The notes beneath the pieces were generated by a model. It had not been told where the DNA came from. It ran no database searches and saw only the letters and a program-made list of their open reading frames with translations. The position numbers were made by a program, and so were the translations under genes. Below are positions 1-12,497 of a stretch of 64,000 bases of DNA, piece after piece; the first letter of the stretch is position 1; the number at the start of each line of letters is the position of its first letter. The DNA lies in the NCBI RefSeq assembly GCF_008704655.1, contig NZ_CP023688.1, positions 4,278,001 through 4,342,000 of the forward strand, written 5' to 3'. The DNA is from Streptomyces rimosus. GTDB taxonomy: Bacteria; Actinomycetota; Actinomycetes; Streptomycetales; Streptomycetaceae.

Positions 1-914
1 TCCGGCACGCGGACCTCGTCACCGAGCAGCAGCCGCACCCCCAGGCGCTCTACGAGCGCTGGGAGAAGCAGCAGTGGTCCGCCCAGGCCATCGAACTGGA
101 GCCGGACCGCGAGGACTTCGACAAGCGGCTGCCGCGCTCCGCGCGCAAGGCGATCGAGGAGTCCATCGCCACCTTCATCATCGGCGAGTACACCGGCCTG
201 GACCTGCTCGGCCCCATCCTGACCGGCGCCCCCGAGGAGCGCGACCACCTCTACCTCGGCACCCAGATCGCCGACGAGACCCGGCACACCCAGCTGATGC
301 TGCGCCTCGGCGAGGAGCTGCTCGGCCTGGATTCCGACCCCAAGCGGATGCTCGTCCAGGCGTGGAACATGGTCACCCCGCCGCACCGGGACCTCAGCCG
401 CCTGGAGACCGAGGTCATCCGCGAACTCCAGGAACACCCCTCGGACTACCGGCGCTGGCTGCGCGCCGTGGCGCTCTTCCACCTGATCACCGAGGGCGTG
501 CTCGCCCTGGTCGGCCAGCGCGCCATCGTCAACTCGCTGCACGGCGTACCGCTGCTGGCCGGGGTGAAGGCCGGCTTCACCGCGATGGCCCGCGACGAGT
601 CCCGGCACGTCAGCTTCGGCCTGCACGCCCTGCGCATCGGGATCAAGGAGGGCTACGGCGACGACATCCGCGAGGTCATCGAGCAGGCCGCGCCGATCGC
701 CCTGAACATCGAGGAGGGCGGCCAGGTCGACGACGCCCCGCAGGGGCTGACCATGAAGCAGCTCGGCATCGAGAGCCTGTACCGGCAGCTCCGCCTCATC
801 GGCATCGAGCGGCAGTTCGCGGACCACGTCGTGGCGCTGTCCATGCCCACGCCGGCCGCCGCCGAAGACGCCGAGGCCGCCGGGAACGCCGAGAACACCG
901 CCTCGCACTCCTGA
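1..914 (+). CDS. Diiron R2-like oxygenase, 5-prime end missing
   Basis: The reading frame is open from base 3, so the start lies before the window; about 303 residues are visible. It is a ferritin-like helical protein of the ribonucleotide reductase R2 / R2-like oxidase superfamily. The six expected iron ligands can be seen in order: the Glu of IIGEYTG, the Glu and His of DETRHTQ, the Glu of HLITEG, and the Glu and His of DESRHVSFG. The C-terminal 25 residues are Ala/Glu-rich and probably disordered. An acyl carrier protein gene follows 69 bases later and a P450 after that, so I infer an oxygenase or desaturase acting on a carrier-bound substrate rather than a true nucleotide reductase. No R1 subunit is present in the window. 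Substrate unknown. Confidence 0.8.
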   Translation, partial: RHADLVTEQQPHPQALYERWEKQQWSAQAIELEPDREDFDKRLPRSARKAIEESIATFIIGEYTGLDLLGPILTGAPEERDHLYLGTQIADETRHTQLMLRLGEELLGLDSDPKRMLVQAWNMVTPPHRDLSRLETEVIRELQEHPSDYRRWLRAVALFHLITEGVLALVGQRAIVNSLHGVPLLAGVKAGFTAMARDESRHVSFGLHALRIGIKEGYGDDIREVIEQAAPIALNIEEGGQVDDAPQGLTMKQLGIESLYRQLRLIGIERQFADHVVALSMPTPAAAEDAEAAGNAENTASHS

Positions 915-983
915 CCCGCCCGGACGCGCCCGCGCGTCCACCGCACCCCGAGCCACACCCCACACCACAGAGAGGTAACCACC

Positions 984-1229
984 ATGACGCGTGAAGAGAT
1001 CATCGCCGGACTCGCCGAGATCCTCAACGAGGTCGCCGACGTCGAACCCGCCGAGGTGAGCGAGGAGAAGGCCTTCATCGAGGACCTGGACGTCGACTCG
1101 CTGGCCATGGTCGAGGTCATCGTCGCCGTCGAGGAGCGCTTCGGCGTCAGCCTCCCCGAGGAGGAGCTGAAGGAGCTGCGCCTGGTCTCCGACATCGTGC
1201 TCCGCGTCGAGAAGCAGCTGACGGCCTGA
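984..1229 (+). CDS. Acyl carrier protein
   Basis: An 81-residue stand-alone carrier protein. The phosphopantetheine attachment serine sits in DLDVDSLAMVEV, near residue 39, with the usual acidic helix before it and the EERFGVSLPEEEL helix after it. The ATG is preceded by GAGAGGTAACCACC, a good ribosome-binding site. It lies between the diiron oxygenase and the P450, so it probably carries the intermediate that those enzymes oxidise. No ketosynthase or adenylation domain is seen in the window, so what is loaded on it is unknown. A strong hairpin follows its stop codon. Confidence 0.92.
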   Translation: MTREEIIAGLAEILNEVADVEPAEVSEEKAFIEDLDVDSLAMVEVIVAVEERFGVSLPEEELKELRLVSDIVLRVEKQLTA

Positions 1230-1255
1230 GCGCCGCGGCGGCCCGCACCAGACCG

Positions 1256-1293
1256 GTGCGCCCCGCCCCTGCCCCCGAAGGGGCGGGGCGCAC
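1256..1293 (+). terminator. Strong hairpin after the ACP gene
   Basis: Perfect 14-base arms (GTGCGCCCCGCCCC and its complement) with a 10-base loop, 26 bases after the ACP stop and ending 19 bases before the P450 start. The stem abuts the P450 ribosome-binding site CCAGGAGGCACC. It may end most transcripts after the ACP gene or act as an attenuator or transcript-stabilising stem within one operon. There is no clear T-run, as is common in Streptomyces. Confidence 0.75.
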
Positions 1294-1312
1294 CTTCCAG
1301 CCAGGAGGCACC

Positions 1313-2542
1313 ATGAGCGACCCGGCCGCGGTACGCCGGGCCCTGCGCGCGCTGTTCAGCCCGCTGGGCTGCCCCGACCCGTACCCGCACTACGCGGTGC
1401 TGCGGGAGCACGGGCCGGTCTCCCGGCTGCCGGACGGCACCGTCGTCGTCAGCCGGCACGCCGACTGCGACCGCGTGCTGCGCGATCCGCTCTTCCGGGT
1501 CGAGGACGACGCGTACCTCGCCCGTACCTGGCCCGAGGGCCGCGACCACCTCAGCGTCTTCTCCCTGATGGGCGAGATGGTCAACCAGAACTCGCCGCAC
1601 CACGAGCGGCTGCGCCGCCTGGTGGGCCGCGCCTTCACCCCGCGCCGGGTGGCCGGGCTGCGGCCCGCGGTGGAGAAGCTGGTCGACGGCCTGCTGGACG
1701 GCCTCGCCGAACGGGCCGCCGGGGGCGCTCCGGTGGATCTGATGGAGCACTTCGCGCTGCCGCTGCCGATCACCGTCATCGGCGAGCTGCTCGGCATCCC
1801 CGAGGAGGACCGCGCCTGGTTCGCGCCGCGCGTGCAGGCCGTCACCTCCGCGATCGAGCAGAACCTCGCCGGGGAGGCGCTGGAGCGCGCGGACGAGGCC
1901 ACCGCGGAGCTGTGGGACCGGCTCGGCGCGCTGGCCGCCCGGCGCCAGGAGGACCCGCGCGCCGACCTGGTCAGCACGCTCATCGCGGTACGCGAGGAGG
2001 ACGGCGACCGGCTCACCCGGCGCGAACTGCTCGCCAACCTGGTGCTGCTGTACTCCGCCGGCTACGAGACCACCAGCAACCTCATCGGCAACGGCACGGC
2101 CGTCCTGCTGGACCGCCCGGACCTGCTCGCGCGGCTGCGCGGCGAGCCGGAGCGGATCGACGCCTGGGTCGAGGAGATGCTGCGCTTCGACCCGCCCATC
2201 CAGATCGCCTCCCGCTGGGCGGGGGAGGACACCGAGCTGGGCGGGGTGGCCGTGGCGCAGGGCTCCCAAGTGGTGGCCCTGCTCGCCAGCGCCAACCGCG
2301 ATCCTGCGCGCCACGGGGACCCGGACGTCTTCCGGCCGGACCGGGCGCCGGGCGGCTCGCTCACCTTCGGCGCGGGCGCGCACTACTGCCTGGGCGCCGC
2401 ACTGGCCCGCCTGGAGGCGGCCATCGCCTTCCCCCGGCTGCTGGCCCGCTTCCCCTCGATCGCGCACGCGGGCACCGGGGCGCCGCGCAACCGTATGACG
2501 TCCCTGCGCGGCTACGCCGAGCTGCCCCTGCTCCTGTCGTGA
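1313..2542 (+). CDS. Cytochrome P450
   Basis: A 409-residue soluble bacterial P450. The I-helix oxygen-activation motif AGYETT is near residue 250, the ExxR pair is in EEMLRFDPP near 287-290, and the haem loop FGAGAHYCLG has its cysteine ligand near residue 359. Length and motifs match the CYP105/CYP107-like families of actinomycetes, but the exact family cannot be assigned by eye. The ATG at 1313 is chosen because AGGAGG lies just upstream. Third in line after the diiron enzyme and ACP, it is probably a tailoring hydroxylase. No ferredoxin gene is nearby, so electrons likely come from elsewhere in the genome. Confidence 0.9.
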   Translation: MSDPAAVRRALRALFSPLGCPDPYPHYAVLREHGPVSRLPDGTVVVSRHADCDRVLRDPLFRVEDDAYLARTWPEGRDHLSVFSLMGEMVNQNSPHHERLRRLVGRAFTPRRVAGLRPAVEKLVDGLLDGLAERAAGGAPVDLMEHFALPLPITVIGELLGIPEEDRAWFAPRVQAVTSAIEQNLAGEALERADEATAELWDRLGALAARRQEDPRADLVSTLIAVREEDGDRLTRRELLANLVLLYSAGYETTSNLIGNGTAVLLDRPDLLARLRGEPERIDAWVEEMLRFDPPIQIASRWAGEDTELGGVAVAQGSQVVALLASANRDPARHGDPDVFRPDRAPGGSLTFGAGAHYCLGAALARLEAAIAFPRLLARFPSIAHAGTGAPRNRMTSLRGYAELPLLLS

Positions 2543-2565
2543 ACGGCTCCCGCCCGGAAACACGG

Positions 2566-2604
2566 CACCGCCGTACGGGGAGCGTTCTCGCCCGTACGGC
2601 GGTG
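2566..2604. terminator. Bidirectional terminator between convergent genes
   Basis: Arms CACCGCCGTACGGG and CCCGTACGGCGGTG form a perfect 14-bp stem with an 11-base loop. It sits between the converging P450 gene and MFS-2TM gene and can serve both. Confidence 0.8.
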
Positions 2605-2629
2605 GAGCGGGGGCCACGCGGTGCGGCTC

Positions 2630-4225
2630 CTAGGAGGACTTGGCCTTCTTCTCGCGCGGCCAGATCGTGTACGACCACGACCAGATCGTGTCGATGATCC
2701 AGATGGTCAGCCAGATGCGGCCGATCCACACCAGCGGGCCGCGGTGCTCGTCGGGCACCTCGTCGTTGGTGAACTGCCACACGATCCAGTTGGACTTCAG
2801 CGCCCACAGGATCACGTTCCCCACGAGGAACGCCGCCGTGTGGATGAGCCAGTCCCGCCGCTCCTTGCGGGCGTGCTCCTTCGGCGAGAGGGCACCGTCC
2901 TTCGACGGCGCCGCGGTGTCCTGCTTCTCCATGTCCATGGCAGTGCGGTCCTCTTCCTCGGGTTTCTCGTGCGGGTTATCGGTCGTGGCGGCGACGGCGG
3001 CCGGAGCGGCCGTCCCGCCGGTCTCGGGGGCCCGTACCGTCTCGGGCAGCTTCAGTACGCGGATGGCGTACGGCACGACGACGGCCCCCACGACCGACCC
3101 GCCCGCCGCCACACAGCAGGCGGTGGCCCAGCCCAGCTGCTCGTAGACCACGCCCATCAGCGCGGGCCCGACGACGACGCCGGACAGCCGCGCGCTCTCG
3201 TACAGGCCCATCCCCCGGCCGACGCGCTTGCCGGCGGCGGCCGCGACGGTGGCCTGTTCCACCGGGATCTGCGCGGCGAAGCAGGCGGCGGCCACCGCCC
3301 ACAGGACCGCGACGGCGACCGGGGTGGCCACGAAGCCGAGCCCGGCCGCGAACAGGGCGCTCGCCAGGAACGCGATGACCATGGTCCGGGTGCGGCCGAG
3401 CCGGTCGGTGAGGTGGTGGGTGTGCTCGGGCAGCAGGATGAACACCACGAATCCGGGCGCGAAGACCATGGCGATCTCGTTGGGCGTCAGCCCCAGGTCG
3501 CCTTGCAGGCGCAGCAGCAGGAGCATCCACAGCCCGGCCTCGGCGGCGGCCGTCACGGCGGACACCACCATCAGGGGGAAAAGCCGCAGGCGGGTCTTAC
3601 GGTCCCGTAGCGCGTCTTCGGTGTCGTCGGTGTCGTCGTCGGCCGCGTCCGGGGCCGTCTCCCGACTGCCCGTCCCCTTGAGCAACGCGGCCGTCGCCCA
3701 TACGCAGGCCGCGCAGCCCAGCCAGAACAGCAGCGGATAGCCGCCGCGTTCCAGCAGGGAGAACGCCACCAGGTAGCCGATGAAGGCGCCCTGGCCCTCG
3801 GCCGACAGCAACTTGCCGTACGCGCTGGTGTGGTTGGTGGCCCGCCGGCCGGTCCAGGCGCGCAGGCCGACCCAGAACAGCGCGCCGCCCGCACCGCCCA
3901 CACCCGACGCGACGAAGGCCAGGGGCAGGTTGTCGGCGAGGGCGTACCCGGCGAAGGACAGGGCGTACAGGAACGCGCCGGCGGCGGCGACCCGCCGCTG
4001 GTCGAAGCGGTCCGACAGTTCCCCGGCGAGCGGCCGCACGATCAGGGAGAGCACCGCCTCGACGGCGACTAGCGCGCCGACCACCGAGGCGCCCGCCTTC
4101 AGCGTCGATCCGGCCCACAGCGGCAGCAGGAAGTCCAGCACCTCGGCGGGAGCGCTGGCGAACATGGCCGCCGAGAGCACCCGGCGGCCGGCCGGGGTGC
4201 CCAGGGCGTCGGTGGGCGCGCTCAC
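2630..4225 (-). CDS. MFS transporter fused to a C-terminal 2TM domain
   Basis: A 531-residue membrane protein. Residues 1 to about 410 form a major facilitator with some twelve hydrophobic segments and a motif-A loop, GELSDRFDQRR. An acidic loop (DAADDDTDDTEDAL) separates the two halves. After a disordered linker of about 40 residues comes a separate domain. It has a basic entry (KEHARKERRDWLIHTAAFL) and two Trp-rich hydrophobic segments, like the small bacterial 2TM domain. Both parts are in one frame with no stop. A GGAAGAGGACC upstream of an in-frame ATG (ATGGACATG) could also allow separate synthesis of the tail. The GTG start overlaps the TGA of the acyltransferase gene (GTGA), so translation is coupled. 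Likely role: export of the cluster product. Confidence 0.78.
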   Translation of the reverse strand: MSAPTDALGTPAGRRVLSAAMFASAPAEVLDFLLPLWAGSTLKAGASVVGALVAVEAVLSLIVRPLAGELSDRFDQRRVAAAGAFLYALSFAGYALADNLPLAFVASGVGGAGGALFWVGLRAWTGRRATNHTSAYGKLLSAEGQGAFIGYLVAFSLLERGGYPLLFWLGCAACVWATAALLKGTGSRETAPDAADDDTDDTEDALRDRKTRLRLFPLMVVSAVTAAAEAGLWMLLLLRLQGDLGLTPNEIAMVFAPGFVVFILLPEHTHHLTDRLGRTRTMVIAFLASALFAAGLGFVATPVAVAVLWAVAAACFAAQIPVEQATVAAAAGKRVGRGMGLYESARLSGVVVGPALMGVVYEQLGWATACCVAAGGSVVGAVVVPYAIRVLKLPETVRAPETGGTAAPAAVAATTDNPHEKPEEEDRTAMDMEKQDTAAPSKDGALSPKEHARKERRDWLIHTAAFLVGNVILWALKSNWIVWQFTNDEVPDEHRGPLVWIGRIWLTIWIIDTIWSWSYTIWPREKKAKSS

Positions 4226-5124
4226 GCTTCGAGCGCCATCTTCGGCGTGATCACCTTGGTGGGGAAGGAGTTGTTGGTGATCCGGGCGAACATGTTGCGC
4301 GGGCCCGGTATCCACACCTCGTCCACCTCCGCCGTCCGCAGGCCGCGCAGGATCGTGGCCCAGTGGACCGGTGTCGTCCAGCCGTCCAGCAGGTCCTGCT
4401 TGATCTCCTCGGCGTCGGTGAGCAGCCGCCCGTCCACGTCGGAGACGACCGGGATGTGCGCGGTGCGCCACTCGACGGTGCCGTACGCCTCGTCGTGCAG
4501 GCGGGTGCGCAGCCCGGCGACGGCGGAGCAGTGCTCGGCCCGGTTCATCGTGTAGAAGGGGAAACCGCCTTCCTCGCGGACCCGTTGCTCGAAGCGTTCC
4601 AGGGTGTTCAGCGTCGCGGAGACGGCGTGCACCTCCTCGTCGAGTACCACCGACAGCTCGGCCCACTCACCGCGCTCGTGCACCTCGGCCACCAGCTGCT
4701 GCACCTTGTCGTGCGGCAGCCGGTAGAAGAAGTGGCAGCCCAGCGGCTCGTCGAGGGTGTCGAAGTAGTCCGTCTCGACGGCGACGCTGCGGCGGATCAG
4801 CCGCAGCGCGTCCGGGTAGCGGAGGGCGCCCGCCCACACCGCCGCCATGAACGCGCCGAAGCTCTGCCCGCCGCAGGCGGCCGGGCGGGCGCCGTGCTTC
4901 TCCTCGGCCCAGTCGGCGAGCGCCAGGGTCAGCGCCATGAACCCGGCCTCGAACACTTCCCATTCGTAGATCGACGCCTCGCGGTAGGCGTCCGCGAGGC
5001 AGTAGCCGAGGACCTCGTCGGCCTCGGCGAAGCGTCGTTTGGCGTGTTCGTTGGTGGTCACGAAGGGGCTGATGGCGTCGAACCGGGTGGGAATGAGCCC
5101 GGGGAAGAAGAGCGCGACGGGCAT
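4222..5124 (-). CDS. FabD-like acyltransferase
   Basis: A 300-residue protein of the malonyl-CoA:ACP acyltransferase fold. The nucleophile is in CGGQSFGAF (Ser88) and the catalytic His in AEHCSAV (His198). The later segment PVVSDVDGR matches the conserved strand of the family. The usual N-terminal FPGQGSQ oxyanion loop is replaced by FPGLIPTRF, and the ordinary GHSLG is GQSFG, so it is a divergent member. An Arg that could bind an acyl carboxylate is kept in LIRRSVAVE. The ATG at 5124 is preceded by AGGAC. It lies between the ThDP enzyme and the exporter in a coupled operon and presumably loads or transfers an acyl group on the nearby carrier protein. It could instead act as a thioesterase-like editing enzyme. 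Confidence 0.8.
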   Translation of the reverse strand: MPVALFFPGLIPTRFDAISPFVTTNEHAKRRFAEADEVLGYCLADAYREASIYEWEVFEAGFMALTLALADWAEEKHGARPAACGGQSFGAFMAAVWAGALRYPDALRLIRRSVAVETDYFDTLDEPLGCHFFYRLPHDKVQQLVAEVHERGEWAELSVVLDEEVHAVSATLNTLERFEQRVREEGGFPFYTMNRAEHCSAVAGLRTRLHDEAYGTVEWRTAHIPVVSDVDGRLLTDAEEIKQDLLDGWTTPVHWATILRGLRTAEVDEVWIPGPRNMFARITNNSFPTKVITPKMALEA

Positions 5125-5176
5125 GCGGCGTCCTGTTCTGCTGGTCTCGACGAGTCGGTCGGTCTCGGCGAGTCGG

Positions 5177-6895
5177 TCATTCGTCCTCACGCAACGGGAA
5201 GTCGCCGGCGGGTCCGGCCATCCCGGGCGGGCTGTCGGCGAGCCGGACCCCGACCTCCACCGCCGCGGCGGTTCCCGACGCGCAGTGCTGCCACGCGGCG
5301 GAAAGGACGCGATCGAGATCGCCGGGGTTGTCAGCGCGCCAGTACTTGAGGCCGTACGCGGCGGCCAGGCCCTCGTTGCCGGTGGGCCGGTCGGCGGTGA
5401 ACGCGAAGCGCGAGCCGCTGCCGGACACCCGGTCGAGGTTGGTCTGGAGCCAGCCGTACCCGCCGTTGTCGAGCACGACGTACAGCACCCCGGCGCCCGC
5501 GTCGGCGAGCGTGGGCAGTTCGCTGCGGAAGAGGTTGAAGGCGCCGTCGCCTGCCACCGAGACGACGGGGCGCCCCGGCTCGGCCAGGGCCACACCGAGC
5601 GCGGCGGCCGCGCCGAAGCCCAGCGGGGTCTGTTCGCTCGGCACCACCGAGCCGCCGCGCGCGCCGCAGGTCCAGTGCGGGTGGAAGTAGGACCACATGT
5701 CCTGGAGGCCGTTCTCCTGCACCAGGACGCGGTCTTCGGGTACGGCACGGCCGAGCGCCGCCAGGACGCGGCTGACCGGGACGCCGCCGCTGTCCTTGGC
5801 CGTACGGTCGGCCTCAAGGGCCCGCTCGTCGGCGCGCGCGGCGAGCGCCTGGCGCACTTCGCTTACGCGGTCCGTCCAGGCGGCGTCGGGGGTGTGCCCG
5901 GCCAGCAGGCCGGTCCAAGCGTGCACGGTGCGCGCAACGTCGCCCAGGACGCCGATGCCGGGCCGGGCGGTCACCAGGCCGTCCTCGCCGGACACCACCT
6001 GGATCACCGGCAGTTGGTCCGCGTCCGGCCAGCCGAAGGTGGCGGTCTCTTCCAGGCGGCTGCCGAGCGCGATCACCAGGTCGGTCTCCTGCCACAGCCG
6101 GTCGACCGGCGCGACGGTGTAGAGGCCGGAGACGCCGCAGAACAGCGGGTGGTCCTCGGCGACCGTGCCGCGCCCGGAGGCGGTGGTGAACAGGCCCGCG
6201 CCGAGGAGTTCGGCGAACGCCTCCAGCGAGCGGTCCGCGTTGCGGTGCCGGGCGCCACCGCCGACGAGCAGCAGCGGGCGCCGGGCGGCGGCGATGCGGG
6301 CGGCGGTGTCGGCCAGTACATCCGGGTCCGGGGTGAGGCGCTGGGCCGCGGCCGGGCGCCAGGGGGCGGTGCGGGTGACCTGCTCGTTCGCGAGGTCTTC
6401 GGGGATCTCGACGTACACCGGCCCCGGAGTGCCGTTGACGGCGACGGCCACGGCCTGGTCGAGGGCCGCGGGCAGCCGGTCGGCGCGGTCCACCCGTACC
6501 GCCCACTTGACCAGCGGGCGTACGGCGGACAGCTGGTCCAGCTCCTGGAACGCGCCGGTGCCCAGCCGCTCCAGCGGGGTGCCCCCGGCGATCAGGACGA
6601 CCGGCGCGGCGGCGGACCGGGCCTCCAGCACGCCGGTGAGCGTGTTGGTCAGGGCCGGGCCCTTGCCCACCGCGCAGACGCCGGGGCGCCCGGACGCCAG
6701 CGCGTAACCGGTCGCCATGAACACGGCGTTGCGCTGGTCGCGGCAGATGACGAAGCGGGTGTCGGTCTGCTCCAGCGCGGCCAGCAGGTCCATGTCGTCG
6801 CCGGGCAGGCCGAAGACGGCCGTGGTGCCCAGGTGCCGCAGGTGGTCGGCGACCGCGTGCCAGGCCGTCGGGTAGGTGTGTGCGCGTTCGTTCAC
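5177..6895 (-). CDS. Thiamine-diphosphate-dependent enzyme, acetolactate-synthase type
   Basis: A 572-residue, three-domain ThDP enzyme of the acetolactate synthase / decarboxylase family. The cofactor-binding signature GDGAFN begins near residue 449 and ends at LDNGGYG. The N-terminal pyrimidine domain starts with AVFGLPGDDMDLLAAL. At the place where the family has its catalytic glutamate (RHEQ in most members) this protein reads CRDQRNAVFMATGYA, putting Gln54 in place of Glu. That would alter ylide formation and is the notable feature here. The GTG start overlaps the stop of the upstream reductase gene (GTGA). The operon context suggests carboligation (acyloin formation) or decarboxylation of a pathway aldehyde or 2-keto acid. 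A role in branched-chain amino acid synthesis is unlikely. Confidence 0.85.
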   Translation of the reverse strand: MNERAHTYPTAWHAVADHLRHLGTTAVFGLPGDDMDLLAALEQTDTRFVICRDQRNAVFMATGYALASGRPGVCAVGKGPALTNTLTGVLEARSAAAPVVLIAGGTPLERLGTGAFQELDQLSAVRPLVKWAVRVDRADRLPAALDQAVAVAVNGTPGPVYVEIPEDLANEQVTRTAPWRPAAAQRLTPDPDVLADTAARIAAARRPLLLVGGGARHRNADRSLEAFAELLGAGLFTTASGRGTVAEDHPLFCGVSGLYTVAPVDRLWQETDLVIALGSRLEETATFGWPDADQLPVIQVVSGEDGLVTARPGIGVLGDVARTVHAWTGLLAGHTPDAAWTDRVSEVRQALAARADERALEADRTAKDSGGVPVSRVLAALGRAVPEDRVLVQENGLQDMWSYFHPHWTCGARGGSVVPSEQTPLGFGAAAALGVALAEPGRPVVSVAGDGAFNLFRSELPTLADAGAGVLYVVLDNGGYGWLQTNLDRVSGSGSRFAFTADRPTGNEGLAAAYGLKYWRADNPGDLDRVLSAAWQHCASGTAAAVEVGVRLADSPPGMAGPAGDFPLREDE

Positions 6896-8133
6896 CGGGG
6901 GGCCTTCGGGTAGTGCTCGGCGACGGCCTTGGAGATCAGGACGGGTTCCGCCCACAGCTCCTCGCCGTCGGTGATGTAGTTGGCCATCCGGCCGAAGCCG
7001 CCGAAGGGCGCGTTGCCGTCGTCGATGGACAGCAGGGTGGTGTCGAGGGTGACGGTGGTGCGGCGGCGCAGCGCGGCCACCAGGTCCGGGGCGTCGCCGT
7101 ACACGCTGGAGCCCAGGGCCCGTTCGGTGAACTGGCCGGTGGTGAGGGTGGCGGCGAGGGCCTGCTCGTCGCGGTAGCCGACGACGTTGAAGACCGGCGC
7201 GAAGAACTCCGGGACCTGCGTGCGCGGGGTCACCTCGTCGCCGACGACGACGGTGGGCTCCATCCGGCGGGTGCGGAAGTCGACATGGCCGCCGTACGCG
7301 ATGTGCTCGCGGTTACGGGCCAGGAACTGGACCGCCTCCTCCAGCGCACCGTCGTAGAAGACCGGCCCGAAGTCGGCGTCGGGGTCGGTGTACGGGCCGT
7401 AGCGCAGGCCCTTGAGTTCGCGGACGAGCCCGTCGAGGAAGGCGTCGCGGAGGTCCTCGTGCACACAGAACAGGTCCGGGCCCAGGCAGTCCTGGCCGGC
7501 GTTGTGGACGCGGATCTCCACGGCGTCGCGCACGGCGCGCTCCACGTCGGCGCCGGGTGCGACGACGAACGGGTTGACGCCGGAGCCGAGGAACAGGAAG
7601 AGCTGCCCCGGGTTGAGCTGGGCCCGGATCTGCTCGGCGTTGTGGTACGCCCCGGTGAACACCACCACGTCGGACGGCAGGACGTGGTCGCGGACGAACT
7701 CGCGCTGGCTGGCGACGGTCAGCTCGATGGGCAGCCGGTGGTGCTCGGCCAGCAGCCGGTGCAGGCGCGCCATCTGGTCCTTGACCTGGCTGGAGGGCCG
7801 GAAGACCAGGTGGTCGGCGTAGAGCGCGGGGACGAGCAGGTACAGCGCGTACGAGTAGAGGATCACGTTGGAGGGCATGAAGACGGCCAGCCGCGGGACC
7901 CGGGCCGGCCGGTACGCATCCACCTCGGCGAGCGCGCCGTCGAGCGTGGCGATGGTCGCCTCGATCTCGTAGCCGGCGGCGCGGTGGGTGGATATCTCAC
8001 ACAGCAGGTCGTGCACGTCGCCGGGGTTGTCGGCCAGCAGGTCCCGCACCGCGCGCAGCGCGGCGAGGCGCCGCGCGTCCGTGGTGCCCTCGGGCACGGT
8101 GGCCGCGGCGGGCAGGACGGGAGCGGAGGTCAT
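6892..8133 (-). CDS. Aldehyde-dehydrogenase-superfamily reductase (acylating type)
   Basis: A 413-residue protein of the aldehyde dehydrogenase fold, shorter than the usual 480-500. The catalytic cysteine is in NAGQDCLGPD (Cys216) and the cofactor loop is VVFTGAYHNAEQI. Where hydrolytic family members have the general-base Glu (LELGG), this one has FLFLGSG, with Phe in its place. Loss of that Glu is typical of acylating members such as LuxC-type reductases, which turn an acyl thioester into an aldehyde. I therefore infer reductive release of an acyl-ACP or acyl-CoA. The ATG overlaps the stop of a 24-codon ORF (ATGA), and its own stop overlaps the ThDP start. The aldehyde would be a natural substrate for that next enzyme. 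Confidence 0.78.
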   Translation of the reverse strand: MTSAPVLPAAATVPEGTTDARRLAALRAVRDLLADNPGDVHDLLCEISTHRAAGYEIEATIATLDGALAEVDAYRPARVPRLAVFMPSNVILYSYALYLLVPALYADHLVFRPSSQVKDQMARLHRLLAEHHRLPIELTVASQREFVRDHVLPSDVVVFTGAYHNAEQIRAQLNPGQLFLFLGSGVNPFVVAPGADVERAVRDAVEIRVHNAGQDCLGPDLFCVHEDLRDAFLDGLVRELKGLRYGPYTDPDADFGPVFYDGALEEAVQFLARNREHIAYGGHVDFRTRRMEPTVVVGDEVTPRTQVPEFFAPVFNVVGYRDEQALAATLTTGQFTERALGSSVYGDAPDLVAALRRRTTVTLDTTLLSIDDGNAPFGGFGRMANYITDGEELWAEPVLISKAVAEHYPKAPR

Positions 8134-8204
8134 GCGCGCACCTCGTCTCGCTCGGCGGACCCACGCTGCACTGGCACGCGCCGCTCGGTGCTGCGCTCAC
8201 TCAT
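8130..8204 (-). CDS. Coupled 24-residue small ORF
   Basis: A short ORF with a strong ribosome-binding site (GGAGGGACAC) before its ATG. It encodes 24 residues beginning MSERSTERRVPVQRG and rich in Arg, Glu and Ser. Its TGA overlaps the ATG of the reductase gene, so ribosomes finishing it would start the next gene. It could be a leader or translational coupler rather than a functional peptide. It has no recognisable family and could be a chance ORF, but the binding site and the exact overlap argue for translation. Confidence 0.5.
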   Translation of the reverse strand: MSERSTERRVPVQRGSAERDEVRA

Positions 8205-8253
8205 GTGTCCCTCCTCGGGGCGTCGACCATAGAGGGCCAGCGTCAGCCAGCTG

Positions 8254-9540
8254 TCATTGTTTGTCAAGTTCAGTCATGGCCGGTGATACGGGGGCGCGAC
8301 CACGGTCACCGGCGGCGCTCCGGTCGATCTCCCGCAGCGCCGGAGCGGCCCAGCAGCAGACCACCACCAGCAGGTAGACCCCGGCGATCAGACCGATCGC
8401 GGGGCGCAGGCCGAGGGCGCCCACGGCGGCGACGGTCAGCGAGGCGCCGAGCGGCACCGCCGCCAGCCCGACCGTGTCGACCGCGGCCGTCACCCGCCCG
8501 TACTGCTCGCGCGGCACGCTGCGCTGGAGCACCCCCGTACGCAGCGGGCCCACCGGCGCCGCCACCGCGCCCAGCACGGCGAGCAGCGCCGCGCCGACCG
8601 GCAGCGGAGGGAGCGAGACCAGCGAGGCGATCAGGAGGCCCGCGGCGAAGCCGGTGCCGATGTAGAGGAACCGGCCGCTGATCCGGTGCCCGAAGACGGC
8701 GTAGCCGACCGTGCCCGCCACCGCGCCCAGGCCGAAGGAGGTGAGCAGGACGCCCAGGCTCGCCGCGCTGCCCAGGTGCTGGTACGCGTACGTCACCAGG
8801 ACCACCCCCGCCAGGCCGCTGTCCAGGGCGTTGAAGGCGGTACCGGAAATGGCGACGGCGCGCAGCAGGCGGTGGCGGCGCAGCGTGCGCAGCCCGGAGC
8901 GCAGGTCGGCGAGGTAGGCACCGGCCGGGCGCCGCTCGGCGGCCCGCCGGCCGGCCGAGATGCAGACGAGGAAGACCAGCGCCGCCAGTCCGCAGGCGAT
9001 GGCGTCGAGGAGCAGCACGCTGTGGGTGCCGAGCAGTGCGACGCCGGCACCGCCCAGTGGGGGCCCGCACAGCTGGGCGACCTGGTGGATGCCGGTGAGC
9101 AGCGCGTTGCCGCGCTCCAGCGGCATGCCCGCGGCCTCGCTCAGCTCCGGCACCAGGCCGGTGACCGCCGCGCCGCCGGGGACGTCGAGGGCGTTGGCGG
9201 CCACCACCAGGAGGGCGAGGGTGGGGAAGTCCAGCGCGTCCAGGGCGTACAGCAGGGGGATGCAGGCCGCGCCGAGGCCGCCGACCGCGTAGGCGACCAC
9301 CGCCATCGCCCGGAATCCCCAGCGGTCGACCAGGGGGCCCGCCACGAATCCGACCACTCCGGAGGTGACGGCCCCGATCGCGACCACGATCCCGGTCTGC
9401 GCCACGCTGCCGGTCGTCTTCAGTACGAACCAGGGGACGGCGACGACCATCATGGCCTCGCCGAGCGAGCTGACCGCCACGGCGCCCAGCAGGGCATGGA
9501 TTCCCCACCGGCGGCGTCGAGGAAATCCCAGGCTTGTCAT
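8254..9540 (-). CDS. MFS efflux transporter
   Basis: A 428-residue major facilitator with about twelve hydrophobic segments, starting MTSLGFPRRRRWGIHALLGA. The loop GPLVDRWGFRAM between the second and third helices matches the family signature. It resembles the MFS_3/TetV-like exporters with a short basic N-terminus. Two further in-frame ATG codons at 9552 and 9558 are possible starts, and none has a clear ribosome-binding site. It is the first gene of the minus-strand cluster operon; 49 bases separate its stop from the small ORF. Likely second exporter or self-resistance pump of the cluster. It is divergent from the XRE regulator. Confidence 0.82.
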   Translation of the reverse strand: MTSLGFPRRRRWGIHALLGAVAVSSLGEAMMVVAVPWFVLKTTGSVAQTGIVVAIGAVTSGVVGFVAGPLVDRWGFRAMAVVAYAVGGLGAACIPLLYALDALDFPTLALLVVAANALDVPGGAAVTGLVPELSEAAGMPLERGNALLTGIHQVAQLCGPPLGGAGVALLGTHSVLLLDAIACGLAALVFLVCISAGRRAAERRPAGAYLADLRSGLRTLRRHRLLRAVAISGTAFNALDSGLAGVVLVTYAYQHLGSAASLGVLLTSFGLGAVAGTVGYAVFGHRISGRFLYIGTGFAAGLLIASLVSLPPLPVGAALLAVLGAVAAPVGPLRTGVLQRSVPREQYGRVTAAVDTVGLAAVPLGASLTVAAVGALGLRPAIGLIAGVYLLVVVCCWAAPALREIDRSAAGDRGRAPVSPAMTELDKQ

Positions 9541-9725
9541 GCGAATTGACATTAGCATGACTGGGTATTGACCAAGTGGCTTCTTCAAGAGCCCGTAAAG
9601 AGCCGGATACGAGCCAGTGACAACCGCCCCCGCCTGCCCTCCGGACGAGTAGAGTCGCGGGTCACAACCCGTAAGCTTGTCCATGCATCCCCTACTCAAC
9701 AGCGAGCTGAACGCCGAGGAACAGC

Positions 9726-10997
9726 TTGACGATCGAACAGCCAGCGTTCGGAGAACGCGTCCGGGAGATCCGTCGCGCCCAGGGCATGTCCCAAGGGGAC
9801 CTCGCCGGCGACGGCGTCTCCCCCAGCTACGTCTCGTTGGTGGAGAGCGGCCGCCGCAGCCCCAGCACCAAAGCGGCCAAGGCCATCGCCGAGCGCCTCG
9901 GCATGTCCCTCGAAGAGCTGACCGCGCCCCGGCCCGCGGACCGCGAGCGCACCCACCGCCTGGAGCTGGTCGGCCAGCTCGTCGCCGCCCGCGCGAGCCA
10001 GGCCGCCGGTGACTGGCCCGCCGCCCGCCGGCAGCTGGAGACCGTCGCCGGACGGGCCGCCGACAACGACCTCGACGAGGTGCGCTGGGAGGCCCGCTGG
10101 GAGCTGGCGGCCGTCCTCGACCAGCTCGGCGCCGCCGACGACCGCGAACGCGTCCTGCGCACCCTGCTCGACGACCCGCTCACCACCGCCGCGCCGCTGC
10201 TGCGCTCCCAGATCGCCGCCGAACTCTCCCAGCTGCACCGGCGGCAGGGCCGCCTGGCCGAGGCGGTACGCCGCGCCGAGGACGCCCAGAGCGCCGCGGC
10301 GGATGTCGAAGCGGCCCGCCCCGCCCGGGTGCAGGCGCAGGTGGCGCTGCTCTCGGCGTACGTGGAAAGCGGCGAGTGGCACCGCGCGCAGGGCCTCGCC
10401 GACACCCTGCTGGACGAGGCGCCGTCCGCCGGTGCCGCGCGCCTTCGCGCGATCGCCCTGTGGGCCGCCGCGGGCGCGCGCTACCTGGACGGCCGCGCGG
10501 ACGCCGCGCACGAGCTGCTGACCGAGGCCGACGAACTGCTCGCGGCCACCGACGACGTGCGGCAGCGCACCCGCCTGGCCCGCGCCCGTACGCTGCTGGC
10601 CCTCGCCTGCGACGCCCCCGGCGCCGACGCCCTGCTGGAGCGCGTCCGCCAGGCCGCCGCGCTGCTCGCCACGCCGGAGACGCTGAGCTGGCTCGCGGCC
10701 CTGGAGGTCCTGGACGCGCTGCGCGCCTCCGACGCGGAACGGGCCCTGGAGCAGGCCGGCACCATTCCCGTCGACTCCCCGGCGCTGCCCGCGCTGGACC
10801 AGGCCCGCTGTGTGCTGATCCGGGCCCGCGCCCAGCGCGCCGCCGGGCGCGAGGCGGCCGCCGAGGCCGACTTCCGTACCGCGGCGTCCGGGTACGAGGC
10901 CGCCGGCGCGTACCGGCTGGCGATGGCCACCTGGCGCGAGCTGAGCGACCCGGGCCACCTCACCGGGCCCGACCCGCATCTGGTCCTGATGCCGTAA
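9726..10997 (+). CDS. XRE-family regulator with TPR-like domain
   Basis: A 423-residue regulator. Residues 8-68 form a Cro/C1-type helix-turn-helix (VREIRRAQGMSQGDLA...SPSYVSLVESGRRSPS). The rest is a run of Ala/Leu/Arg-rich helical hairpins that look like tetratricopeptide repeats. This layout is common in Streptomyces pathway regulators that bind a small ligand or peptide. The start is TTG at 9726 with GAGGAA five bases upstream. It is divergently placed from the MFS gene, so it may control the cluster from the shared 185-base spacer. No palindromic operator was obvious there. Confidence 0.85.
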   Translation: MTIEQPAFGERVREIRRAQGMSQGDLAGDGVSPSYVSLVESGRRSPSTKAAKAIAERLGMSLEELTAPRPADRERTHRLELVGQLVAARASQAAGDWPAARRQLETVAGRAADNDLDEVRWEARWELAAVLDQLGAADDRERVLRTLLDDPLTTAAPLLRSQIAAELSQLHRRQGRLAEAVRRAEDAQSAAADVEAARPARVQAQVALLSAYVESGEWHRAQGLADTLLDEAPSAGAARLRAIALWAAAGARYLDGRADAAHELLTEADELLAATDDVRQRTRLARARTLLALACDAPGADALLERVRQAAALLATPETLSWLAALEVLDALRASDAERALEQAGTIPVDSPALPALDQARCVLIRARAQRAAGREAAAEADFRTAASGYEAAGAYRLAMATWRELSDPGHLTGPDPHLVLMP

Positions 10998-11063
10998 GGG
11001 CGCGGGCGCCGGGCGGACGCCGGACCGGACGCACCGGCCCGCATCCGCCCGGCGCCCGCGCCC
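10998..11063. terminator. Bidirectional terminator, 20-bp stem
   Basis: Perfect 20-base inverted arms (10998-11017 and 11044-11063, GGGCGCGGGCGCCGGGCGGA on the left) with a 26-base loop that can itself fold. The stem begins right after the XRE stop codon, between the XRE and phosphopantetheinyl transferase genes, which converge. Confidence 0.85.
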
Positions 11064-11068
11064 GGCCG

Positions 11069-11731
11069 TCACGGCCCCACCGGCACCGGACACCGCACCC
11101 GCCACACGACGGCCTCGCTCACCGGCTGCGAGGCCGCCACGGAAGCGGCGGTGTCCGGATCGGTGGGCAGGTCCTGTACGTACGCGACGCCACCGGCGCC
11201 CAGGATGCCGGTCTCGGGCACCGCGACCGCGCCCTTCGGCCCCGCGCCCAGGACGTCCACCTCGGCGGCGAACGCCAGCCCGCCGCGGCCCGTGAGCCGC
11301 AGCGCCGCTTCCTTGCGCGTCCACCACTGGGTGAGCAGCGCCGCGCGGTGGGCGGCCGGGGCCGCTTCGGCACGGGCCCGCTCGGCGGCGCCGAACGGCA
11401 GCCACGCCCAGGCGTCCAGGGACGACGGCACGGTGGACACACTCAGCGCCACCGAAGCGCCGCGGGCGCAGGCGATCAGCAGTCCGCCCTCGTCACGGCA
11501 GACCGTCAGGTCCAGCGCCCCGGCGGACAGCCGCGACCTGCCGAAACCGTCACGCGTTGAGCGCACTTCGCACGGTGAGCAGTCCAGCAGCCAGGCCACC
11601 AGGGCGTGCAGCCGACCTGGCCACAGGCCGCACGGGCAGGAGTCGCCGGCGGCCGCGAAGCCGTCGTCGCCCGGCCGCGCGCACCCTTGCGTACAGTCCG
11701 CCGCCTCGTCCAGGACCGAGAAGACGTGCAC
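11069..11731 (-). CDS. Degenerate phosphopantetheinyl-transferase-like protein
   Basis: A 220-residue protein of Sfp-type length. The third signature is intact: TQWWTRKEAALRLTGRG. The other two are damaged. The NxSHs segment is LTVCRDEG, and the metal-binding GxDxE segment is VALSVSTVP, so both acidic magnesium ligands are gone. Either the enzyme is inactive or it has a changed role. The start is taken as GTG (VHVFSVLDEA), because family members begin this way and GAGGGA lies just upstream. The open frame extends upstream to a TTG at 11869 that would add 46 unrelated residues. It lies at the edge of the cluster that contains a carrier protein. Confidence 0.65.
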   Translation of the reverse strand: MHVFSVLDEAADCTQGCARPGDDGFAAAGDSCPCGLWPGRLHALVAWLLDCSPCEVRSTRDGFGRSRLSAGALDLTVCRDEGGLLIACARGASVALSVSTVPSSLDAWAWLPFGAAERARAEAAPAAHRAALLTQWWTRKEAALRLTGRGGLAFAAEVDVLGAGPKGAVAVPETGILGAGGVAYVQDLPTDPDTAASVAASQPVSEAVVWRVRCPVPVGP

Positions 11732-12497
11732 CTGTCCCTCGGAGATGGCGGAGGCGTTTCCCGGCTCCCAGCGCGCGCCGCGCAGCCCCGGCCCCCACGG
11801 TGTTTCCGGACCGTCGTCCGGACACAGCAGGCCGGCTCCGGAAACGCTCCCCCGAAATGTTGCTTGCAATGTTCCCCCGATTTTTGGATTTCGTCACGCC
11901 GCGAATACGGGGAACCGCGTCGGCACCTGCGCGAGAAACGGGAGAATGCCTGGCCGCCTGGTCAGTTTGCAGCCATTCCCCGTTACACCGCACGAAGAGC
12001 CGAAGAGCGGACCCCGGGCGTACAAAACCGTTGGCGATTCACCTCCGTCCGCCTCCTTCCGCGCTCGGCGGCAGGGCAAGTCCACCGCGGGCCGCAGCGC
12101 CCGGTCAGTGGCGCCGCACCCGCTGTCACCTGCCCCAACACCCCGATGCGGAACGGTCGGCAGACTGTGCGGACCCCAAGGTAGCCAGCTCGTTCACGCG
12201 AGTCAACAGCGCTGAAAGGCACCTGACAAGACCTGACTGCGCATCACAGAGAGGCATCGCCACCGCACTTGCCGGGTTGGCCGAGACACTGCGTACCGGA
12301 ACCGGTAGGACTGACTCCGGTCATCGCCGCGCACTAGGATGTCCCACCCTCCGGCCCGCCTGTACCGGGTCGCCCACGCTCCGCGATCGGAGCAGGCCGA
12401 AGGCCGTCGGAGGGGGCCGCGAGGAAGCGGCGGACGACGGCGTTCAGTTATTTCCCGCATTTCTTGGCGCGGAAGAGGAAGGGGTGGGTCCGGCATC
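11732..12497. other. Intergenic region of 766 bases
   Basis: A divergent spacer between the phosphopantetheinyl-transferase-like gene and the EspR-like gene. Part of it (around 11840-11960) is less GC-rich than its surroundings. That part contains AATGTT repeated on either side of a TTGCTTGCAA palindrome near 11856-11873. No convincing coding frame was found. The right end holds a promoter and an inverted repeat, listed separately. Confidence 0.5.
12294..12340 (+). promoter_or_regulatory. Promoter with upstream inverted repeat before the EspR-like gene
   Basis: TACCGG-AA-CCGGTA is a 6-bp-arm inverted repeat at 12294-12307. Just downstream are a -35-like CTGACT (12311-12316) and a -10-like TAGGAT (12335-12340), 18 bases apart. 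Transcription would begin near 12347, leaving a leader of about 150 bases. The repeat could be an operator for the gene's own product, which is inference. Confidence 0.45.

Follow-up and report, generated by a model that had tools for sequence, protein, structure and literature searches.

What kind of molecule would call for an R2-like oxidase, an acyl carrier protein (ACP), a cytochrome P450, a VinK-type acyltransferase, a thiamine diphosphate (ThDP)-dependent enzyme, an enzyme of the aldehyde dehydrogenase (ALDH) fold, two major facilitator superfamily (MFS) exporters and an XRE-type regulator? Genes for all of these, described from open reading frames (ORFs) and Pfam/NCBIfam matches, occupy the first 11.9 kb of a 64,000-nucleotide stretch of Streptomyces rimosus (the window; C1:4278001-4342000 of a 9.36 Mb genome on a single contig). 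The original prediction, made from the sequence of the window, had named the same genes and called them tightly coupled; both points were borne out, the genes being close-packed with stop/start overlaps at 4222/4225 (start picked by eye) and 6892/6895. It had further proposed an undescribed gene set, lacking a ketosynthase (KS), that builds a small and unusual scaffold.

Reading 18 kb of left flank changed the interpretation. The cluster spans about C1:4264376-4289869 (~25 kb), and the window holds only its right half. Just left of the window lie a class III lanthipeptide synthetase (LanKC), its precursor peptide (LanA), two ketosynthases, an enoyl reductase (ER) and a ligase, in keeping with the expectation that the cluster continues leftwards; the small ketosynthase-free scaffold was dropped on this evidence. 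That the cluster is real, conserved, biosynthetic and acts on carrier-bound acyl groups is supported. From its gene content, it very probably encodes a class III lanthipeptide/fatty acid hybrid, i.e., a polar-functionalised, fatty-acylated ribosomally synthesised and post-translationally modified peptide resembling the lipolanthines, the most likely product being a short ring-closed peptide with a charged fatty-acid tail. The class of fatty-acylated lanthipeptides is itself already known.

Lanthipeptide and fatty acid genes in one cluster

The synthetase scores 1000.7 bits on the class III model NF038151 (cut-off 575). Directly downstream of its gene, and preceded by a ribosome-binding site recognised by eye, is a 28-residue precursor, MSIVLDLQGLEVPAEEAARVSSTVSSHC, with a VLDLQGLE leader segment and a core ending in SSTVSSHC. 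A pattern search of the fetched stretches found one to four precursor-like ORFs in each of 14 related clusters, all with the leader LDLQ(G/A)L(E/Q/D)xPA.E. The C-terminus reads STxSxxC in 13 clusters and SSVSNGC in S. iconiensis, giving SxxSxxC in 14/14; five ORFs run one or two residues beyond the Cys and for two a longer start was taken, and every cluster has at least one that ends in Cys. Residues 2, 5 and 8 of an eight-residue core are reported to be cross-linked in the lipolanthine nocaviogua (PMC10435860), and the S. rimosus precursor has Ser, Ser and Cys at the matching positions of its last eight residues.

No LanD-type gene was found in the cluster: there are four PF02441 matches genome-wide, the nearest ~178 kb from the cluster's right edge. 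A LanD-type flavoprotein decarboxylase in the cluster is what we take to be the requirement for avionin, and thus for a lipolanthine in the strict sense; an avionin ring was rejected on this ground, and a labionin is predicted instead. The enzyme likely to attach the fatty acid is a GNAT acyltransferase 45% identical to that of an S. lydicus-like cluster. VinK and the second ketosynthase had been considered as N-acyltransferases and were dropped once the GNAT gene was found. Two more class III lanthipeptide synthetases are encoded in the S. rimosus genome (C1:6585677-6588220 and C1:903887-906367).

The acyl half comprises a type II fatty acid synthase-like set (FabF, second ketosynthase, FabI, HadA-like dehydratase (DH) and ACP) and a triad of ThDP enzyme, ALDH and AMP-forming ligase. 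The genes are as follows.

Left flank
C1:4264376-4265026, minus: NodS-like methyltransferase
C1:4265849-4266499, minus: GNAT acyltransferase (by Pfam), left of the glycosyltransferase
C1:4266589-4267821, minus: macrolide-type glycosyltransferase
C1:4267856-4268485, plus: 209-aa protein, family not recognised (no Pfam match), overlapping the second ketosynthase
C1:4268476-4269636, plus: second ketosynthase
C1:4269707-4271161, minus: AMP-forming ligase
C1:4271171-4271632, minus: HadA-like dehydratase
C1:4271629-4272654, minus: agmatinase/arginase-family amidinohydrolase
C1:4272656-4273426, minus: FabI enoyl reductase
C1:4273512-4273598, minus: 28-aa lanthipeptide precursor (LanA), directly downstream of LanKC
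C1:4273666-4276296, minus: LanKC class III synthetase (NF038151)
C1:4276293-4277633, minus: FabF ketosynthase
Window
C1:4277925-4278914 (window 1-914), plus: R2lox-fold dimetal oxidase, 329 aa, starting 75 bases left of the window
984-1229, plus: ACP, 81 aa, DSL motif; in 14/14 clusters
1313-2542, plus: cytochrome P450, 409 aa, accessory; in 9/14 clusters
2630-4225, minus: MFS exporter; in 13/14 clusters
4222-5124, minus: VinK-type (FabD/VinK-like) acyltransferase (PF21124)
5177-6895, minus: ThDP-dependent enzyme of the acetolactate synthase superfamily, Gln54 at the usual catalytic Glu site
6892-8133, minus: ALDH-fold enzyme of acylating/reductase type, Cys216 present, deacylating Glu absent
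8254-9582, minus: second MFS exporter, start codon uncertain (open frame to 9699)
9726-10997, plus: XRE-type regulator (HTH_3 by Pfam)
11069-11758, minus: Sfp-like phosphopantetheinyl transferase (PPTase)-like protein, start uncertain; gene not in the original prediction

The MFS protein at 2630-4225 carries ~100 additional C-terminal residues that, judged by eye, resemble a pair of membrane helices. The Sfp-like gene marks the right edge of the cluster and is followed by a small XRE gene, an unassigned ORF and ctaD; no ctaD was seen beside the S. virginiae cluster within the stretch read there. We assume that a (W)xxKEA motif and a metal-binding DxE are the hallmarks of Sfp-type PPTases. The Sfp-like protein has WTRKEA, with the KEA-type motif kept in relatives (KDA in Salinispora), while its DxE position is not acidic and its best PDB match, Sfp, is weak (E 0.066); it may have lost PPTase activity or taken on another function.

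The gene set does stay together in other actinomycetes, and the pattern is not chance. Scanning one genome per species for the ALDH returned 14 loci. The cluster is present at 12 of these, and the cluster described here and that of S. albofaciens (G036) were added, making 14 clusters; two loci (L063, L064) with a weak ALDH match only (L064 also ThDP) were dropped from the table. Three of the 14, the present one and those of S. albofaciens and S. rimosus, hardly differ from one another, and the number of independent cases is therefore below 14. The R2lox, ACP, VinK, ThDP, ALDH, ligase, FabI, LanA, LanKC, FabF and XRE genes and one MFS gene are present in 14/14, as is the Sfp-like gene (one a partial match). 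GNAT is present in 13/14, the 14th locus stopping at a contig edge, and the second ketosynthase with its 209-aa partner in 12/14, both misses being loci that end at contig edges. The methyltransferase and the glycosyltransferase each occur in five. Among 392 Streptomyces genomes, 31 carry the ALDH at E <= 1e-60; of these the four R2lox-type loci (the present one, G036, G042, G048), seven S. lydicus-like loci, G412, G263 and G221 (R2lox) were read, with 18 other loci unread.

The ThDP enzyme, aldehyde dehydrogenase and ligase

The combination that had seemed without precedent in the window is explained by the lipid operon of fusaricidin biosynthesis, which by annotation contains the same module of KS, DH, ER, ligase, ALDH and ThDP genes (PMC6829208 Table 1). 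There, fusB-fusG are annotated as DH, KS, 'acetolactate synthase', ALDH (1224 bp), acyl-CoA ligase and enoyl reductase, deletion of any single one is reported to have abolished antifungal activity, and the tail is given as 15-guanidino-3-hydroxypentadecanoyl (PMC6829208). Six Paenibacillus homologs of the S. rimosus ALDH have 407 residues, the length of FusE (1224 bp), and 42-46% identity, in a comparison made with these homologs and not with the Fus sequences themselves.

The module also occurs in seven S. lydicus-like sibling clusters (G353, G196, G449, G253, G250, G407, G324; ALDH identity 75-80%). All seven have a LanA ending in GST(V/I)S(T/G)GC, LanKC at 47-48%, GNAT, FabF, ThDP, ALDH, XRE and a 665-aa flavin adenine dinucleotide (FAD) protein, and all six uncut by a contig end have the Sfp-like, ACP, FabI, HadA and ligase genes. 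R2lox, VinK, agmatinase and P450 were absent from the 23-36 kb read at these loci, where the second-ketosynthase match was a FabF cross-match only. Proteins of S. lydicus make up many of the ALDH matches at sibling-level identity, and S. lydicus is reported to produce solabiomycins A and B, 13-guanidinotridecanoyl peptides with dehydrobutyrine (Dhb), Ile or Val, Gly-Gly and a sulfoxide bridge (PMC13192320). With one position excepted, the eight residue symbols given for solabiomycin (PMC13192320) match the cores GSTISGGC and GSTVSGGC, from which we infer that the sibling clusters make solabiomycins.

By this comparison, the ThDP enzyme, ALDH and ligase of S. rimosus would load the ACP with an omega-guanidino acyl starter made from an acid that derives from an arginine-type amino acid. 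FabF, DH and FabI, together with host FabG and malonyl-ACP, would then extend this starter into a long omega-guanidino acyl chain of the kind reported for fusaricidins and solabiomycins.

Two residues bear on how the starter might be made. In the ALDH, Cys216 is invariant and the deacylating Glu of PDB relatives is replaced by Phe, Tyr or His in 20/20 homologs, which upholds the earlier description of the enzyme as acylating-type; a Glu268-type general base is, we assume, the usual deacylating residue of hydrolytic aldehyde dehydrogenases. The ThDP enzyme, a member of the superfamily that includes acetolactate synthase and 2-hydroxyacyl-CoA synthase, has Gln54, within CRDQR(N/H)A, where BbmA has His-Glu (19/19 aligned sequences). 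This position aligns with the Glu contacting the ThDP pyrimidine, presumably the usual catalytic residue of ThDP decarboxylases and carboligases.

Several observations count against the proposed route and product. An ALDH without the Glu for hydrolysis to an acid is ill suited to a sequence of aldehyde, free acid and ligase; chains built on a C4 starter from arginine should have an even number of carbons, but those reported are odd (C13, C15); and neither an aminotransferase nor an arginine oxidase was seen among the cluster genes called. The agmatinase gene is present in only 9/14 clusters and the HadA-like gene in only 3/14, one relative reading N there. The link between sibling clusters and solabiomycins consists of core sequence and species names only, and the review table has a bridged Gly before Dhb where the precursor has Ser (PMC13192320).

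The logic first put forward for the window differs: ligase and ALDH would act like a carboxylic acid reductase to yield an aldehyde, and ThDP carboligation would then give an acyloin or insert one or two carbons. The residues and the superfamily just described agree with this, a one-carbon step would account for the odd chain lengths, and ligase and ALDH form one fused frame, as in carboxylic acid reductases, in a second S. rimosus cluster (885 aa, C1:1.117 Mb), in G412 (930 aa; no LanKC in the 20 kb read at either locus) and in G531 (928 aa), which has LanKC. However, the two are separate in the S. rimosus cluster and in G263 (no LanKC in 20 kb read), the fusaricidin and solabiomycin products are reported as omega-guanidino chains without an acyloin, and the lanthipeptide half lay outside the view from which the logic was drawn. 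A simpler reading exists than ThDP carboligation of an aldehyde, which we regard as unlikely, if still a serious contender to formation of a guanidino starter.

The guanidino group itself may not persist. DstH is reported to remove an amidino group late in desertomycin biosynthesis (PMC4737276), and by analogy the agmatinase-family gene predicts a tail with a free amine in the clusters that carry it. All five clusters with the NodS-like methyltransferase also carry the agmatinase, a gene not found in the seven solabiomycin-type clusters.

Related gene sets were seen elsewhere. The second S. rimosus cluster (L109, C1:1108001-1128000) combines the fused ligase-ALDH with a ThDP enzyme containing CRDQRNA, an ACP, a short-chain dehydrogenase/reductase and, by eye, an alpha-oxoamine-synthase-like gene and a condensation-domain-like protein. 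Locus L110 (G412:C5:270001-290000) has two agmatinase-family genes and, by eye, a copper amine oxidase with FabF, ACP, ThDP and fused ligase-ALDH genes, a set that suggests conversion of an acyl tail from guanidine to amine to aldehyde.

The R2lox-like oxidase and its candidate partners

The new element of the cluster is, from the alignments, an R2lox-like protein, present in 14/14 clusters, that keeps the metal ligands and has Phe in place of the cross-link Tyr. The 329-aa oxidase has the R2lox fold at 18-22% identity to the known R2lox proteins (M. tuberculosis, G. kaustophilus, S. acidocaldarius, Sac. erythraea), from which it also differs in lying within an acyl biosynthetic cluster. The dimetal ligands E118, H121, E190, E225 and H228 are kept in 54/54 aligned sequences and the sixth, E88, in 53/54. 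Neither residue of the Tyr-Val ether cross-link is found: Tyr162 is replaced by Phe185 in 54/54, and Val72 aligns near T90/G91, where the alignment is less certain. A ribonucleotide reductase (RNR) subunit was considered and rejected, as R2lox structures rank ahead of RNR R2 in the sequence-profile search (first 15 rows) and by VIA Z (first 27 rows); by Foldseek E-values the two interleave from row 7. No R1-like gene is among those annotated. In the open-access literature we found no report of an R2-like ligand-binding oxidase in a biosynthetic gene cluster.

The oxidase, possibly with the second ketosynthase and its small partner, might hydroxylate or desaturate the carrier-bound chain, while the VinK-like enzyme would shuttle acyl groups from carrier to carrier. 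We tentatively propose, with somewhat less than even confidence, that an R2lox clade without the Tyr-Val cross-link (Phe185) oxidises carrier-bound omega-guanidino or omega-amino acyl chains and defines a new subfamily of lipopeptides whose tails are oxidised, de-amidinated and in some cases methylated or glycosylated.

The VinK-type protein scores 56.3 bits on the VinK_C domain (PF21124, cut-off 27) and keeps the Ser of GGQS(F/Y)G and the His of AEHC in 13/13 aligned sequences; a relative in the LanKC cluster of G531 (54% tblastn identity) falls below the PF21124 threshold. On the AmcF model (cut-off 325) the second ketosynthase reaches only 128 bits, against 163 on FabF, and since the cluster's own FabF reaches 198.5 on the AmcF model, the likeness to AmcF is not specific. 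The arrangement is nevertheless shared, the AmcF/AmcG pair of cispentacin biosynthesis likewise being a ketosynthase with a small motif-less gene directly upstream (PMC10698177). The 209-aa partner gave 20 database matches, the named ones all from Streptomyces, and a Salinispora relative at 42% by tblastn; its AlphaFold2 model is poor (predicted local distance difference test score, pLDDT, 55.8).

Alternatively, the oxidase could act on the labionin sulfur, in the role of SolS, or on the omega-amine. Solabiomycin has a sulfoxide bridge, a title cited in PMC13192320 assigns labionin sulfoxidation to SolS, and the S. rimosus cluster is without the 665-aa FAD protein found in 7/7 S. lydicus-like clusters. 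Yet R2lox and the FAD protein occur together in 3/14 clusters and in G531, and in three other Streptomyces genomes (G663, G221, G283) R2lox lies near relatives of the ThDP enzyme, ALDH, ligase and second ketosynthase with no LanKC match within the 34-37 kb read, which argues against labionin as a general substrate. The P450 is another candidate for sulfur oxidation: none of the 14 clusters has both the P450 (9/14) and the FAD protein (3/14) (p = 0.027 from plain counts, uncorrected for relatedness), which would fit a shared function, perhaps labionin sulfoxidation. G531 carries the FAD protein and a P450 relative (30%). We consider a sulfur or amine substrate improbable, slightly more so than carboligation by the ThDP enzyme, and retain the acyl chain as the proposed substrate.

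Proposed pathway and relation to known systems

In the proposed pathway, LanKC would dehydrate and cyclise SxxSxxC to labionin, the adjacent Thr becoming Dhb; an unclustered protease would cut the leader, after which GNAT would couple the chain to the peptide N-terminus. The agmatinase-like enzyme could then expose an amine at the chain end, in the manner of DstH in desertomycin biosynthesis; further tailoring could come from the NodS-like methyltransferase, the P450 and the glycosyltransferase, and export would fall to the MFS proteins. That the locus instead joins two unrelated neighbouring clusters, one for a lanthipeptide to the left and one for fatty-acid/ThDP chemistry inside the window, is very improbable: the triad does occur without LanKC (20 kb read) in G412, G263 and elsewhere in S. 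rimosus, but acyl genes flank LanKC/LanA on both sides (FabI, agmatinase and ligase; FabF and ACP), 14 genomes preserve the mixed set, and the S. virginiae cluster lacks the ctaD neighbour.

No named product that could be linked to the S. rimosus cluster was found in the literature listings consulted, albopeptin and lipoavitide being among those considered. The cluster predicts a differently decorated lipopeptide subfamily in at least 14 genomes. It offers one tractable pathway for studying the role of an R2lox-fold oxidase without the cross-link Tyr, a member of a family with a little-understood physiological function, and it bears on how guanidino chains of odd length are primed in fusaricidins and solabiomycins and on the mechanism of a ThDP enzyme in which Gln replaces the usual Glu. 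Solabiomycins are reported to be active against mycobacteria (PMC13192320), and microvionin and goadvionins, unlike nocaviogua, against Gram-positive bacteria (PMC10435860).

Three groups of known systems come close. The fusaricidin operon shares the lipid module but serves a non-ribosomal peptide (FusA), and its published gene table contains no R2lox, VinK or second ketosynthase (PMC6829208). The lipolanthines (microvionin, nocavionin, nocaviogua, goadvionins) have in common with the S. rimosus system a class III synthetase, a SxxSxxC-type eight-residue core, a GNAT and, by prediction for S. rimosus, an N-acyl chain, as described in PMC10435860 and PMC13060382; the S. rimosus cluster differs in having no LanD and a predicted labionin rather than avionin, and no methylated-guanidino or trimethylammonio tail has been shown for it. 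Solabiomycin-type clusters, assigned by core sequence only, share LanKC, a short ST(V/I)SxxC LanA, GNAT, FabF, FabI, DH, ACP, ligase, ThDP, ALDH, XRE and the Sfp-like gene, and the solabiomycin product is described as an omega-guanidino chain on a labionin peptide (PMC13192320). Compared with them, the S. rimosus cluster is without the 665-aa FAD protein and has in addition the R2lox, the VinK-type acyltransferase, the second ketosynthase with its small partner, the agmatinase, the P450, the glycosyltransferase, the NodS-like methyltransferase and two MFS genes.

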